Shown here: positions 54,101 through 59,469 of the stretch, one piece after another | Position numbering within the stretch: the first letter of the stretch is position 1 | Layout: each line of letters begins with the position of its first letter | Source: Pseudomonadota bacterium | GTDB lineage: Bacteria > Desulfobacterota > Binatia > Binatales > Binataceae | Direction of reading: 5' to 3' | Assembly: GCA_021324885.1 (NCBI GenBank) | Contig: JAJPIF010000006.1 | Coordinates: forward strand, 1-64,000 | DNA: 64,000 nucleotides | The notes under the pieces: model-generated | Databases searched by the model: none | Seen by the model: only the letters and a program-made list of their open reading frames with translations | What the model was told of the DNA's origin: nothing | Made by a program: the position numbers and the translations under genes

Positions 54101-55027
54101 TCAGCGCGTCTGACCGGCGTAGATGTTGATTATGTCGTTTAACATCTTGAGCGCATCGGGTTTTTTGCGCTGGAAGGTGTTGCGGCCGATGATCGAGCCG
54201 AAGCCGCCGCCGTCGCGAATCGCGCGAATTTCTTCGAGCAATTCCGCCTCGTCCGGTTTGGCTTCGCCGCCCGAGAAGATCACGATCCGCCGCCCGTCAA
54301 ATGCGCTCTGAACTACGTGCCGCACTCGTTCGGCTTGCGTCCCCAGGGGGACCTTGTTCTGTTCGTAAACGGCTTTAGCCTCGGGCTGTTCGATATGAGC
54401 GCTGGGCAGCTTGACCTTGATCACGTGCGCGCCTAACTGCGCGGCTATTTGTGCCGCATAGGCGCAGACGTCCACCGCGGTTTCGCCCGCCTTGCTCAGA
54501 TCGGAGCCCCGCGGATATGACCATACCACCACCGCCAGGCCCGCGTCCTTGGCCTCGGCCGCCAGTTCGCGCAACTGCTCGTACATCTCGGTCCGATGCT
54601 GCGAGCCAGGGTAGATCGTAAAGCCGACAGCGCAGCAGCCCAGGCGCAGCGCGTCGTTCACGCCGGCGGTCATCGCCGGAATTGGATCGGCTTCTTTATG
54701 GAGCAGATCGTGGTTGTTGCACTTGAGGATAAGCGGGATCTCGCCGGCGAACTCCGCCGCGCCGGCTTCGATGAACCCCAGCGGAGCGGCGTAGGCGTTG
54801 AGTCCCGCTTCGAGCGCCAACTGGAAATGATAGAACGGATTATAGGCCGGCGGATTCATCGCGAAGCTGCGTCCCGGCCCATGTTCGAAACCCTGGTCGA
54901 CAGGCAGGATCACCATCCGGCCGGTGCCGGCCAGCCTGCCATGATTAAGCATCCGCGCAAGGTTGCTCAACACGCCCGGATTCTCGCCCTGATACCAGCC
55001 AAGGATTTCACGCACCCGCGGTGTCAT
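54101..55027 (-). CDS. Class I fructose-bisphosphate aldolase (DhnA/FbaB type)
   Basis: A 308-residue Schiff-base aldolase. ILPVDQGFEHGPGRSFAMNP, LKCNNHDLLH and VVWSYPRGSDLSKAGETAVD are family blocks. The Schiff-base lysine lies in AHVIKVKLPSAHIEQ, and IVIFSGGEAKPDEAELL plus IIGRNTFQRKKPDALKM close the barrel. It cleaves or forms fructose-1,6-bisphosphate without metal. With glk, glgP and ppdK it forms a hexose/gluconeogenesis set, though not one operon. It lies between the aminotransferase and glucokinase genes on the same strand. Confidence 0.92.
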   Translation of the reverse strand: MTPRVREILGWYQGENPGVLSNLARMLNHGRLAGTGRMVILPVDQGFEHGPGRSFAMNPPAYNPFYHFQLALEAGLNAYAAPLGFIEAGAAEFAGEIPLILKCNNHDLLHKEADPIPAMTAGVNDALRLGCCAVGFTIYPGSQHRTEMYEQLRELAAEAKDAGLAVVVWSYPRGSDLSKAGETAVDVCAYAAQIAAQLGAHVIKVKLPSAHIEQPEAKAVYEQNKVPLGTQAERVRHVVQSAFDGRRIVIFSGGEAKPDEAELLEEIRAIRDGGGFGSIIGRNTFQRKKPDALKMLNDIINIYAGQTR

Positions 55028-55240
55028 GATTCAAACCTCCAGATTTTCAGCGTTCAACAAGCAAGATGCAGGCCTGCCGATTATACGCTCGCAAGGCCCC
55101 AGTCCGTGTCACAGACTCGTCAATTCGGCAACTGACATCGGCAACGGACATACGATACTGTAGCAGCCCGCGAGGCGAGGCCAAACCGATTGCGGGTTAT
55201 CGGCCAGGACGCCTGCGATGCACTTGTCCGGCACAAGGGC

Positions 55241-56446
55241 TCAGGTTCGCGCGACTTGCCCGAGCGAGTCCGTGATGGCCCGGAGAGCGAAATCCACTTC
55301 CGTATCGCTGATCGTCAGCGGCGGGGCCAACCTCACGACGCGATCGCAGTTCAGGGTCCAATTGACAATCACGCCGGCCTCGATACATCTGGCAGCCAGG
55401 CGGCGCGTGAGATCGGCGCACTTCAATTCGATACCGATCAACAGGCCGACGCCGCGGACCGCAGTGATTGCCGGAGCGCGCAAATTCTTCAGGTGTCCAA
55501 TGATATTGTTGCCAATCCGGGCGGCACGCTCCGCCAGGTTTTCCTCCACCATGACCTCGAGCGCGGCGAGGCCCGCAGCGCAGGACAGCGGATGGCCGCC
55601 AAAGGTGGTGATATGTCCCAGCGGTGGATCGTGCGCCAGCACCGCGAGCAGCGAACGGGAGGCGCAAAACCCGCCCAGCGGCAGACCGCCACCCAGCGCC
55701 TTCGCCATCACGACTATGTCCGGGACGACACCAAAATGTTCGAGGGCGAAGAGCTTGCCGGTACGGCCAAAGCCGGTCAGGACTTCGTCGAAAATCAACA
55801 GCGCTCCCGCCGCGCTGCAACGCTCGCGCAGTGCGTGCATGAATTCGGCGGTTGGGACATGCACTCCGCCTTCGGCCTGGACCGGTTCGATCACTACGGC
55901 GGCCACGGTGTCATCGATTGCTTCCAGCGCCGCGATTTCGCCGTAGGGTAGATGATGGACGGGTCCGGGCAGCGGCTGAAATGGCGCGCGAAATCCGGGA
56001 TTGCCGGCCAGCGCCAGCGCACCCATCGTATCGCCGTGATAGGCGCCGTCGAAGGCGACGAAGGCACTCCGACCGGTATGTTTGCGCGCGGTTTTCAACG
56101 ATCCCTCAATCGCTTCCGCGCCGCTGCTGGTGAAATAGACCTGCTCCAGTCCGGCGGGAAGCAATCGGATCAAACGGCGCGCGAGCTCCACCTGCGCATC
56201 GAGGACGTATTCCCCGTAGACCATCACATGCAGGTAGCGCTCGGATTGGCGGCGGATGGCGGCGAGAACTTTGGGGTTGGCGTGGCCACAATTGGCAACA
56301 CCGATTCCCGATATGAAATCGAGGTAGCGTTTGCCGTCGCGCGCAATAAGCCACGAGCCTTCGGCCCGTTCGATTTCGAGACCGATCGGGTCCGGCGAAG
56401 TCTGGGCGAGGAAATCAAGAAAGTCCGCGTGCAATCGATTATCCAT
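55241..56446 (-). CDS. Class III PLP-dependent aminotransferase
   Basis: A 401-residue fold-type I enzyme. The substrate/PLP region is VYFTSSGAEAIEGSLKTARK, and AYHGDTMGALALAG stacks on PLP. Asp220 in LIFDEVLTGFGRTGK contacts the pyridine nitrogen and Lys249 in VMAKALGGGLPLGG forms the Schiff base. Class III enzymes transfer amino groups to or from terminal carbons (ornithine, GABA, omega-amines, acetylornithine). The start overlaps the end of the LuxE-LuxC gene by eight bases, so an aldehyde product of that protein is an attractive amino acceptor; this is inference. Confidence 0.9.
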   Translation of the reverse strand: MDNRLHADFLDFLAQTSPDPIGLEIERAEGSWLIARDGKRYLDFISGIGVANCGHANPKVLAAIRRQSERYLHVMVYGEYVLDAQVELARRLIRLLPAGLEQVYFTSSGAEAIEGSLKTARKHTGRSAFVAFDGAYHGDTMGALALAGNPGFRAPFQPLPGPVHHLPYGEIAALEAIDDTVAAVVIEPVQAEGGVHVPTAEFMHALRERCSAAGALLIFDEVLTGFGRTGKLFALEHFGVVPDIVVMAKALGGGLPLGGFCASRSLLAVLAHDPPLGHITTFGGHPLSCAAGLAALEVMVEENLAERAARIGNNIIGHLKNLRAPAITAVRGVGLLIGIELKCADLTRRLAARCIEAGVIVNWTLNCDRVVRLAPPLTISDTEVDFALRAITDSLGQVART

Positions 56447-58862
56447 CGCCCGTCTCCATCAACCGCAGGAAGCGGCCGCCACCATGAGGCCAGGAGGGCG
56501 GCGGAGACTGCAGTTGGCCCGGTTCGCAGAAATACGAAACGCCCGCCTGGCGCAGTATCTTGCGCGCCGCTTCCAGGCGCCCGGCGGGGTCCGCGATGAC
56601 GCATCCTTCAAGCACGGCGGTGGCGGAATTCAGCCTTCGCGCCAGTTCTTCCCGACTCTCGAAAACGCTGATACGGACGCTGCGCCGCAGCGGCGCCGGT
56701 TGGAAGCCAGCGTGCGGATCAAAGATCACGGTCCAGCTCAAATCCTTACCCTCCCAAAGCGCGACTGGCGCACCGCCAATCGCGCGCCATCGAGTGCTTT
56801 CGCGCAGCGCACGCGCGGCGGCGCTTTCATCCATCGGCGGATTCGGATCGGGAGGCATCGCGAGGCTGGCTGCCTCCAGTTCCAGCGCCAGCATTTGACC
56901 AAAATCGCGCCCCGACGCCGGCGTGCCCTCGATCATTATGTGATGCAGCGAAAGACATCCGCGCTGATCGAAGAAGCTGACGTCGCGAGCCAAGGCCGCG
57001 GCTGTAGAGCGTGCGCTGGCGCCGGCGATCGCTTCACTTGCGAGCACCGCACCGCTGATCCGGCTGCCAAAGCCGATTAACTTCGGACCGGCAATCGCCG
57101 CCATGGCGGTGATCGTCCGGTCCTCACCAAAAGCCACGATACGATCGCACGCGGCGGCCATCGCGGCGGTCGACGGGTAATCGGAACGACCCCACACCAC
57201 CACGCACATTCGTGAGGCGAGGGCTGGATCGATCGATTGTACGGTGCGGCAAAACTGGGCGAAAAACCGCGGCTCCAGGCTGGAGGCTTTGACTATCACG
57301 GCGGCGCCCGCAATCAGCGCCTGCACCACTTCATGGAGCCCCGCGCCGATCACGTTGCCGGGCATGATGAAGCCGATCAGTCGCTCACGCGTGGAAAGTC
57401 TGCGCGCGAGATCCCCCAAGGCGCCGGCAGTGAAACCCGCCAGCAAAGCGTCGAGTGACGCGTTGAGCAGCGCCAAAGTTGGTCCGTTCGCGGATGCGGC
57501 GGCGACAGTGGCGACACGTTGGGCGAAGCTGGGGTCCCGCCATCGTTCGCAGGCGCGGGCCAGGACCGCGGCGATGTGTTGCGGCGACAACGGCGCGGCA
57601 ACGGCCGAGCGCAGGCGCGATGCGATCTCGCCAAGTTCGGACGCCCCTTCTCCGGTCAGGCAATGGGCAAGTTCCTGGCCGGTTTCCGCGGGAATTCGCC
57701 ATCGTGCCGGCGCATCATAACCCAGCCTTCTGCCCTTTCCTCTGTTTTCCTGCACCAGGCCCTGAGCCGGGAGCGAAGCAGGAAGCCTCGCTGCGAACTG
57801 CTCGATTGCCAACGCGCATCCCCTCGGATCGGCGCTGAGGTAGCGGCCGAAAAGGCGCACGGTCCCGTCGGCATTCACCATGCCTATATCTTCAGTCAGC
57901 AGCGCCGATACCGAACCCGCGTTGGCCAGGTCGAAGAACGAAAGCAGTCCAAGCTCACCGGGCCCTAGCGGAGCGAGAGTTTTTGGGTCGCGCGCGATGA
58001 CCTTCAGCCACGGTGGAGCAACCTTGACGCGTTCAAGCCCGTCGTCTGGCGACGATAGGTAAGAATTCAAGCTGGTCGCATCATAAAGCTGTGAGCACAG
58101 CTCCGTCATCCCGTACTCGTTGATAACCCACGGCGGCGGGATTGCCAGATAACGGCTGGCCATCTCGAAAATGTCGCCGGGGGCCAGCGGATGAGACTGT
58201 CCTTTCGCACCGCCGGTATCCATCAGGCGCGATCCGGCTGCCAGCTGCAGTCGCGCGCCCTTGACGCGCAGGTACTGGAACAACGACGAAATCGCTGCGG
58301 TAGTGGATAAAATACAAAGTGGTGCGCCGCGATTTTCAGCTTCATGCAGGAAGCTCAAAGCCGCCTGGAGGTCCACCCCTTGCCGGGTGGCGCAGCATAG
58401 CCCCTCGCCGCCGCCGAAGACTTCGATACACCAGCTAATCATCTGGCTCAGAGAAGACTCCGGCATCCGATCGGCCGTGGGGTGCAACGCCAGCATCCAG
58501 GGACGGCATCCATCAGGGAATAGCATCCGCTGCATATGCTTCAGCGCGGAGGCACGGTAAAGCTCAATATCCGCGATGAGATGGCGTCCGCGCTCTTCGC
58601 GCCCAAGTGTGGTGCCGCTGGTCATGAAAACCCGCCGGGGCGTTGCGCTGCAAAACTCGACATATTTGAAAGCGGCGGTGGAGACCGGGGGGATTTCAGC
58701 CACGGTGCGAACTTTTTCCGGCGGCATGCCGCAGCTCAACACGAATCGACGATAAGGTTGCACCCTGGCAAATTGGTCCTCGAACACCGCCAGCGCCAGC
58801 TTCTCGAAGTACGTCGGGTCAGGATTTTCAATAAAATTCAGGATTTGCGCTTTGATGGTCAT
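56439..58862 (-). CDS. Fused LuxE (acyl-protein synthetase)-LuxC (acyl-CoA reductase)-like fatty acid reductase
   Basis: An 807-residue protein from ATG 58862. Residues 5-360 are LuxE-like: SCGMPPEKVRTVAEIPPVST, the adenylation motif FMTSGTTLGRE (79-89), VINEYGMTELCSQLY (247-261), and the acyl-accepting cysteine C349 in SADPRGCALAIEQ. Residues about 470-760 are LuxC-like: GFIMPGNVIGAGLHEVVQAL, VIVKASSLEPRFFAQFC, and catalytic C636 in FFDQRGCLSLHHIMIEG. LuxE activates a carboxylic acid and transfers it to LuxC, which reduces it with NADPH to aldehyde. No luxA or luxB is nearby, so this is not bioluminescence. It overlaps the downstream class III aminotransferase. Confidence 0.88.
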   Translation of the reverse strand: MTIKAQILNFIENPDPTYFEKLALAVFEDQFARVQPYRRFVLSCGMPPEKVRTVAEIPPVSTAAFKYVEFCSATPRRVFMTSGTTLGREERGRHLIADIELYRASALKHMQRMLFPDGCRPWMLALHPTADRMPESSLSQMISWCIEVFGGGEGLCCATRQGVDLQAALSFLHEAENRGAPLCILSTTAAISSLFQYLRVKGARLQLAAGSRLMDTGGAKGQSHPLAPGDIFEMASRYLAIPPPWVINEYGMTELCSQLYDATSLNSYLSSPDDGLERVKVAPPWLKVIARDPKTLAPLGPGELGLLSFFDLANAGSVSALLTEDIGMVNADGTVRLFGRYLSADPRGCALAIEQFAARLPASLPAQGLVQENRGKGRRLGYDAPARWRIPAETGQELAHCLTGEGASELGEIASRLRSAVAAPLSPQHIAAVLARACERWRDPSFAQRVATVAAASANGPTLALLNASLDALLAGFTAGALGDLARRLSTRERLIGFIMPGNVIGAGLHEVVQALIAGAAVIVKASSLEPRFFAQFCRTVQSIDPALASRMCVVVWGRSDYPSTAAMAAACDRIVAFGEDRTITAMAAIAGPKLIGFGSRISGAVLASEAIAGASARSTAAALARDVSFFDQRGCLSLHHIMIEGTPASGRDFGQMLALELEAASLAMPPDPNPPMDESAAARALRESTRWRAIGGAPVALWEGKDLSWTVIFDPHAGFQPAPLRRSVRISVFESREELARRLNSATAVLEGCVIADPAGRLEAARKILRQAGVSYFCEPGQLQSPPPSWPHGGGRFLRLMETGDG

Positions 58863-59040
58863 GTAAACCAATCGGCGGCCCCGCCGTCTAATGATCCAGC
58901 GCTGCGGTGGAGCATTCAACCCGACGCCGAAGCGGCATGAAGGTGAAAGTTTTGGATTAAATTTTTTCTTTGCGAGCCTTGATGCATCCTTGGCTTTTTG
59001 CTACTACCAATTCTGGTTGCGCCCAGGAGGGGCGTGGCGA

Positions 59041-59469
59041 ATGAAAAGATTTGCCGCTGGCGTGGTGCTCGGATTCATTCTGAGCTGCGGGTTGGGCTTG
59101 GCTGCCCAAAGTCTGGATCACAACGGTACGTTTTGGAACAATCTGGGCAGTTCTGCGAAGCAGGGTTACGTGGATGGCTATAGCGACGCCATGAACGTGA
59201 GCATCGGCAAACTGGACAATCTGATGATTGCGGCCGACCTGTTTCGATGGAAGGGGGCAAAGAAAATCATCCGTCAGCTCTCGCGTGAGCTTGCCACCTC
59301 GGATCAGCGTCCTGAGGAGTTAGTCAAGCGCCTCAACGAACTCTATGCCGATCGCAAATACAGCGAATTGGATCTGGGTTCGGCGGTGCAGCTGCTGACC
59401 ATGCGCACTCAGGCCCCCGAGGCGCAGTCCCCAACCGGCTCCAGCAATCAGGCGCCGTCAACCCGCTAG
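59041..59469 (+). CDS. Small exported protein, hypothetical (142 residues)
   Basis: ATG 59041 follows AGGAGG. The signal peptide is KRFAAGVVLGFILSCGLGLA with likely cleavage after AAQ. The mature helical protein includes FWNNLGSSAKQGYVDGYSDA, KKIIRQLSRELATS and RLNELYADRKYSELDLGSAV, and has a Ser/Pro/Gln tail. The AKQGYVxGYxDA stretch recalls Rap1a/Tai-like helical periplasmic proteins, but the match is weak. It is divergent from the LuxE-LuxC gene and 215 bases before the HtrA-like gene. Confidence 0.65.
   Translation: MKRFAAGVVLGFILSCGLGLAAQSLDHNGTFWNNLGSSAKQGYVDGYSDAMNVSIGKLDNLMIAADLFRWKGAKKIIRQLSRELATSDQRPEELVKRLNELYADRKYSELDLGSAVQLLTMRTQAPEAQSPTGSSNQAPSTR

Follow-up and report, generated by a model that had tools for sequence, protein, structure and literature searches.

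Two kinds of enzyme system are among the described ones closest to the locus reported here. In the accessible parts of the relevant reports, PigE (prodigiosin), PtTamH (tambjamine) and KecF (koreenceine) each join a reductase to a class III aminotransferase, and take a thioester to an aldehyde and on to an amine. PigE carries both of these last steps in one polypeptide, for which its authors consider channelling likely (PMC8341465); PtTamA and PtTamH together turn free fatty acids into amines (PMC9594044); and the same two last steps are predicted for KecF by its authors (PMC6498172). The other is the fatty acid reductase of the lux system (7xc6), in which LuxE and LuxC are separate chains and the partner enzyme is luciferase. 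Here we analyze a 64,000-nucleotide stretch (positions 1 to 64,000 of contig JAJPIF010000006.1, assembly GCA_021324885.1; hereafter the window) from a member of the Binataceae, class Binatia, in which LuxE and LuxC are fused in one protein and the partner is a class III aminotransferase. We consider it likely that these three activities constitute a cassette by which a free carboxylic acid is turned into a primary amine. On sequence grounds, the conserved unit in the class is the three-gene cassette, and the LuxE-LuxC fusion is only a smaller part of the story.

The LuxE-LuxC protein, P0001, is encoded on the minus strand at 56439..58862 (807 aa; ATG at 58862, stop at 56439), and an alternative TTG start upstream of this ATG would extend it to 826 aa. 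Its LuxE half, an acyl-protein synthetase of the adenylate-forming type (aa 5-355; 57798..58850, minus strand), matches PF04443 at 5.4e-12, scoring 45.7 bits against a Pfam cut-off of 24.9. It carries the adenylation signature TSGTT at aa 81-85 (58608..58622, minus strand) and, near its C-terminus, the presumed acyl-acceptor cysteine Cys349, which ends the motif PRGC (codon at 57816..57818, minus strand). The LuxC half, an acyl thioester reductase resembling aldehyde dehydrogenases (ALDH), matches PF05893 at 1e-40 (140.3 bits, cut-off 21); it spans aa 498-800 by Pfam (56463..57371, minus strand), begins at about aa 403 with a profile of relatives, and contains the presumed catalytic cysteine Cys636 at the end of FDQRGC (codon at 56955..56957, minus strand). 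Among aligned relatives, Cys349 is kept in at least 97% of 67 LuxE sequences and Cys636 in at least 97% of 64 LuxC sequences; TSGTT is found in 44 of the 67 LuxE sequences, with variants in the remainder, and NEYGMTE in 54. The nearest PDB chains are the LuxE (1.5e-12) and LuxC (1.5e-6) chains of 7xc6, matches which improve to 2e-29 and 3.8e-37, respectively, with a profile of relatives, and Cys349 and Cys636 each align with a cysteine of the corresponding chain. A preliminary description of the locus had read both halves as intact from their motifs and cysteines, and the Pfam scores and residues bear this out. PF04443 and PF05893 each have a single match in the whole genome. Against the models of the lux operon itself, P0001 falls far short, at 50.9 of the 550 bits set for LuxE (NF052244) and 42 of the 750 set for LuxC (NF052251). 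An assembly or frameshift artefact is an unlikely source of the fusion, because both other genomes of the same genus (G001 and G002) have it too, at 60-65% identity. The AlphaFold model of P0001 (four rows) was poor, with a mean predicted local distance difference test score of 44.7, and was not used.

The aminotransferase, P0002 (401 aa; 55241..56446, minus strand), matches PF00202 at 1.3e-105 (353.9 bits, cut-off 30.5), and its frame overlaps that of P0001 by 8 bp (56439..56446, minus strand). The presumed pyridoxal phosphate lysine, Lys249, lies in AKALGGG (codon at 55700..55702, minus strand) and is kept in at least 97% of 64 cassette aminotransferases; coordinates and motif thus agree with the overlap and the lysine first described. 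Arg372 (codon at 55331..55333, minus strand), present in 46 of 46 cassette sequences, presumably binds the carboxylate of the amino donor, a role that we take from the class III family.

The distribution of these genes was followed in a class set of 148 genomes and a phylum sample of 395, with class searches accepting E values up to 1e-10 for LuxE/LuxC and up to 1e-110 for the aminotransferase. A search with P0001 alone matched 50 of 57 related genomes, the window's own included. LuxE/LuxC are found in 107 of the 148 class genomes, and an aminotransferase orthologue in 101, with one match per genome and every one of them inside the LuxE/LuxC set; the six genomes with LuxE/LuxC alone (G062, G077, G078, G080, G089 and G103) are draft assemblies split into 470 to 1200 contigs. 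The cut between cassette orthologues and other aminotransferases is clean. The weakest complete orthologue in the class scores 605.7 bits (two more, truncated by contig ends, score 544 and 553), the next best protein in the phylum sample reaches 420 bits in one genome (G416) and then at most 375, and the genome's own ArgD scores 356. Both components lie on one contig and strand in 92 of the 101 genomes, within 2 kb of each other in 82 and within 5 kb in 90, distances which are upper bounds, as LuxC positions are incomplete among the matches listed. The adjacency is therefore not peculiar to this genome, as the preliminary description had allowed it might be. Two genomes listed as one contig (G050 and G061) also have the cassette.

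Fusions add a second line of evidence. Loci were read in 70 genomes, including 32 of family f1 (a few of them too fragmentary to judge) and 11 of family f6. LuxE and LuxC share a frame in six of the 32 f1 genomes (G000, which is the window's own genome, G001, G002, G004, G005 and G010), which are also the only six among all 70, while LuxC and the aminotransferase share a frame in all 11 of the f6 genomes read (14 f6 genomes match LuxE/LuxC), the frame extending over 848 to 1234 codons, with the shortest ended by a contig end. Parsimony on the LuxE and LuxC trees, which were quick trees without bootstrap, requires three changes for the LuxE-LuxC fusion, at least two of them forced by starred branches, and one change for the LuxC-aminotransferase fusion. 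By these counts the fusion of LuxE with LuxC is locally restricted, and three adjacent genes are probably the ancestral state. The existence of fusions in both directions argues strongly that LuxE, LuxC and the aminotransferase would act in sequence.

We infer the reactions and their order from comparison with the characterized families. LuxE would use adenosine triphosphate (ATP) to form an acyl-adenylate from the acid, and would then load the acyl group onto Cys349; by the precedent of lux, the acyl group would pass from Cys349 of LuxE to Cys636 of LuxC, where reduction with NAD(P)H would release the aldehyde. The class III aminotransferase would convert this aldehyde to the amine, with glutamate as the probable donor. 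Fusion, whether of LuxE with LuxC as here or of LuxC with the aminotransferase as in f6, might hold the reactive thioester or aldehyde near the next active site. The acid-to-amine coupling first proposed is supported by linkage, fusions and conserved residues, with catalysis deduced from homology. Two limits apply: nothing in the data points to a fatty acid in particular as the substrate, and the fusion is not the conserved unit. A medium or long aliphatic acid is quite possibly the substrate.

Several observations weigh against this reading, or limit it. LuxE/LuxC and the aminotransferase lie on different contigs in 8 of the 101 genomes; in G005 the aminotransferase is about 14 kb from LuxE-LuxC and on the opposite strand, and gaps of 6 and 15 kb separate them in two further genomes. 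No LuxE/LuxC match was seen in 41 of the 148 class genomes, so the class as a whole does not depend on the cassette. Among the neighbor proteins scanned, which are part of all, there is no conserved pathway neighbor that would name the product; the flanks of the cassette vary from family to family and, where scanned, consist mostly of housekeeping or unrelated genes. The cassette clade was split (two changes) in a first aminotransferase tree, which had HemL as its outgroup and contained further very long rows. Finally, both Lux halves score far under the lux-operon models, which leaves room for substrates other than fatty acids.

The aminotransferase might alternatively be an ArgD-type paralogue engaged in ordinary amino-acid synthesis, and a mere neighbor of LuxE-LuxC. 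Its best NCBIfam scores are indeed to acetylornithine transaminases (371 and 356 bits), and in the PDB it comes nearest to 1vef, an acetylornithine/acetyl-lysine aminotransferase. However, among the best 25 of 70 matching NCBIfam models P0002 falls under every cut-off: it reaches 371 of 457 bits for PRK03244 and 355.7 of 410.05 for ArgD (TIGR00707), and likewise scores below the cut-offs for BioA (TIGR00508, 267.1 of 405) and PigE (NF053554, 292.7 of 850, over the aminotransferase part only). The same genome has a separate ArgD (482.5 versus 410 bits), BioA (511.9 versus 405) and HemL (553.5 versus 527). In ArgD, the arginine of the GRT motif holds the distal carboxylate of ornithine-type substrates; P0002 has Asp139 at this position (YHGDT; codon at 56030..56032, minus strand), as aspartate is found there in 46 of 46 cassette sequences and [YF]HGDT in 64 of 64 of a larger set. 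Among the 46, the glutamine of the DEVQ motif of ArgD is replaced by leucine, valine, isoleucine or methionine, and LHVMVYGE is almost invariant. The lost arginine is nonetheless weaker evidence than it looks, because PigE (GKT) and putrescine aminotransferase (GKS) have lysine there and the genome's BioA has aspartate; it would make ornithine-type substrates less likely, but says nothing in favor of alkyl ones. A second tree combined 33 rows of the cassette with ArgD of the same genome, the best aminotransferases from 15 phylum-sample loci and one Bacteroidota protein, and left out HemL, BioA and three other long aminotransferases of the genome. It united the cassette rows in a single clade (97/95), next to which stood the Bacteroidota protein, while every other row fell outside (100/97). 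ArgD of the genome and the 10 rows grouping with it carry GRT, and the other five rows have one GRT and four GKT. Since BioA stood only in the first tree, it is excluded by score and not by a good tree. Given sub-cut-off scores, a clade of its own, no GRT arginine, and separate ArgD and BioA genes, P0002 is best classified as neither ArgD nor BioA, and the clustering with acetylornithine or adenosylmethionine-8-amino-7-oxononanoate enzymes, which the preliminary description had named as telling against its proposal, was not seen. The consistent fusion to LuxC in f6, and the fact that none of the 148 genomes has the aminotransferase without LuxE/LuxC at the cut-offs used, further oppose an incidental neighbor, and we regard this explanation as very improbable.

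Other explanations retain the three genes as a unit, or two of them, and assign them a different task. The acid could be small and polar, for instance a hydroxy acid, and pass through the same three steps to an amine used to build a surface glycan or head group instead of a fatty amine, which we judge possible but rather unlikely. As far as the accessible portions of the reports go, LuxE and LuxC genes occur in flagellin glycosylation islands (PMC4875605, PMC7874193), and a LuxE domain occurs in RfbN of tetronate synthesis (PMC4772473); these precedents point in that direction, as do the scores of the cassette LuxE and LuxC, far under the lux equivalog cut-offs, and the genes for a class I fructose-bisphosphate aldolase and a glucokinase that follow the cassette on the same strand in the window. 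Yet these two genes do not recur in the loci of relatives, and there is no glycosyltransferase among the scanned neighbor proteins, a minority of the neighbors. In the catabolic direction, an amine would be deaminated, LuxC would oxidize the aldehyde to a thioester, and LuxE would free the acid. Although class III aminotransferases and ALDH-type enzymes are generally held to be reversible in principle, LuxE belongs to an ATP-dependent, acid-activating family that would be needless for oxidation to a free acid, lux systems run reductively, and no amine transporter or amine oxidase is present among the neighbor proteins scanned (part of all), which together render this direction improbable. Still less credible, to the point of being extremely improbable, is that LuxE-LuxC feed aldehyde to a luciferase-like light reaction, with the aminotransferase incidental. 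Homology to LuxE and LuxC would be consistent with such a role, as would a luciferase-like family, F22, near the cassette in five relative loci (three of the five were scanned), of which two proteins match luciferase alpha (NF052254) weakly, at 115 and 101 of 600 bits. Neighbors of this kind are, however, expected by chance, because PF00296 has 127 matches in the 4.53-Mb genome G000, or about one per 36 kb. The four luciferase-like proteins examined, all from loci of relatives, score under every cut-off shown, one of them best matching a methylenetetrahydromethanopterin reductase model, and in the window there is no PF00296 match, in keeping with the lack of luciferase genes first reported, and no luxAB-linked lux operon. 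Bioluminescence was rejected on the grounds of PF00296 density, these scores, and the absence of a match in the window.

With acid-to-amine conversion as the preferred function, the relationship of the cassette to described systems can be drawn more closely. In the accessible parts of the reports, the reductase of PigE, PtTamH and KecF resembles cyanobacterial acyl-ACP reductases and takes a thioester of acyl carrier protein (ACP) or coenzyme A (CoA), whereas the cassette has an ALDH-like LuxC fed by LuxE; and those enzymes lie in natural-product clusters, whereas the cassette is stand-alone and class-wide. Because reductase family, activation step and setting all differ, the cassette would work like PigE/TamH and yet is, by this comparison, not a member of that group. 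With the lux reductase it shares both families and the aligned cysteines, and differs in the fusion and in the partner enzyme. RfbN of Vibrio cholerae O1 is presumably itself a fusion of the LuxE-LuxC type, and we know of no cassette aminotransferase accompanying it. In the accessible part of one report, its LuxE domain has a non-luminescent setting, an O-antigen pathway unlike the cassette, and a LuxE homologue is also noted in Riemerella (PMC4772473). No description of a LuxE-LuxC-aminotransferase cassette, or of a LuxC-aminotransferase fusion, was found in the literature searched, which included accessible parts of PMC9594044, PMC7874193, PMC4875605 and PMC12915131 and left subscription papers mostly outside the search; nothing on the cassette was found in the accessible literature on Binatota and BioE.

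Outside the class, LuxE/LuxC matches occur in 23 of the 395 phylum-sample genomes. As a control, loci were taken for 17 of these 23; LuxE and LuxC are both present in 13 (four of the 13 on contigs under 5 kb), and at none of these 13 does any aminotransferase reach 1e-5 against the cassette profile. Plasmid matches comprised 27 records, 24 of them with at least 80% query coverage. The LuxE-LuxC pairs on plasmids of Azospirillum, Pantoea, Priestia and Lactiplantibacillus resemble the cassette in being adjacent outside luminescence, but are only about 29-33% identical to its proteins and differ in context: a short-chain dehydrogenase/reductase (SDR) gene follows the pair in all four regions, an ABC transporter lies right behind LuxC in two, and no aminotransferase is among the annotated features of the four regions, for which the gene table is incomplete. 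The Bacteroidota protein of the second tree is the aminotransferase WP_309943019.1 from Aureibacter tunicatorum. It has VMVYGE and TTFGGHP, scores 506 bits on the cassette profile and stands on the cassette's side of the tree, apart from that of ArgD (100/97), but has GNT and DEIQ where the cassette has GDT and DEVL, and the 25-kb stretch around it contains no LuxE or LuxC profile match. On plasmid pAT2 of A. tunicatorum (L103:11415-13176), a GNAT acetyltransferase gene stands just ahead of this relative of the cassette aminotransferase, with a 7-base gap between them, an adjacency that hints at amine acylation. Elsewhere, four loci of phylum family f24 (L135-L138) have a LuxE-LuxC pair amid genes of like size and order; a scan of one of the four, L136, found among the neighbors radical SAM-B12, homocitrate-synthase-like and aconitase-like proteins, a pyridine-nucleotide oxidoreductase, a U32 peptidase and VTT proteins, and this gene group may represent an undescribed acid-elongation and reduction pathway. 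At L147:6529-10339 and L148:6108-9953, LuxE precedes a protein of about 900 residues in which a LuxC part precedes what by eye resembles a PaaK-type AMP ligase, apparently a further fusion of such activities.

The neighbors of the cassette in relatives include thiL, prfB, lnt, CNNM transporters, LarB, an ABC1-family kinase, a histidine kinase, a CoA-transferase, a TPR protein and Zn-dependent dehydrogenases. Neighboring genes were rejected as a key to the product, as they differ between families and explain nothing. In G002, a genome of the same genus as the window, the gene behind the aminotransferase encodes an SDR, and a gene of that family is truncated by the contig end in G001; in the window an aldolase gene takes this place. 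The aminotransferase locus of G005 has an enoyl-CoA hydratase, a CoA-transferase, a luciferase-like monooxygenase and an amidohydrolase, a single case. A promoter and terminator scan of 54900-59100 returned about the number expected by chance. Divergent from the cassette, the window encodes at 59041-59466 a 142-aa protein that looks exported by eye and has no Pfam match; its family was seen at 28 loci, all in f1. Two further features of G000 were recorded in passing: a stand-alone aminotransferase (G000:C29:247589-248578, L004), for which PigE is the top NCBIfam model (371 of 850 bits) and 4ppm the top PDB entry, and the PF00296 count, a very large expansion.

Direct conversion of acids to amines is wanted in biocatalysis, and the natural examples we found in print are few. 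The cassette would constitute a second solution to this conversion, supplied with ready-made fusions, and would give LuxE and LuxC, familiar mainly from luminescence, a clear non-luminescent partner. It also predicts that most members of the class contain an amine metabolite not yet described. A bolder reading, possible though less likely than not, is that the whole class, represented in this analysis mostly by draft genomes, produces an amine of its own that is new to the literature, such as the precursor of an amide or of a membrane lipid with an amine head, through a covalent cysteine-to-cysteine relay that is free of CoA and ACP and ends in transamination; this would be a LuxC-based counterpart of PigE/TamH, of separate origin, and would belong to common metabolism and not to a natural-product cluster.

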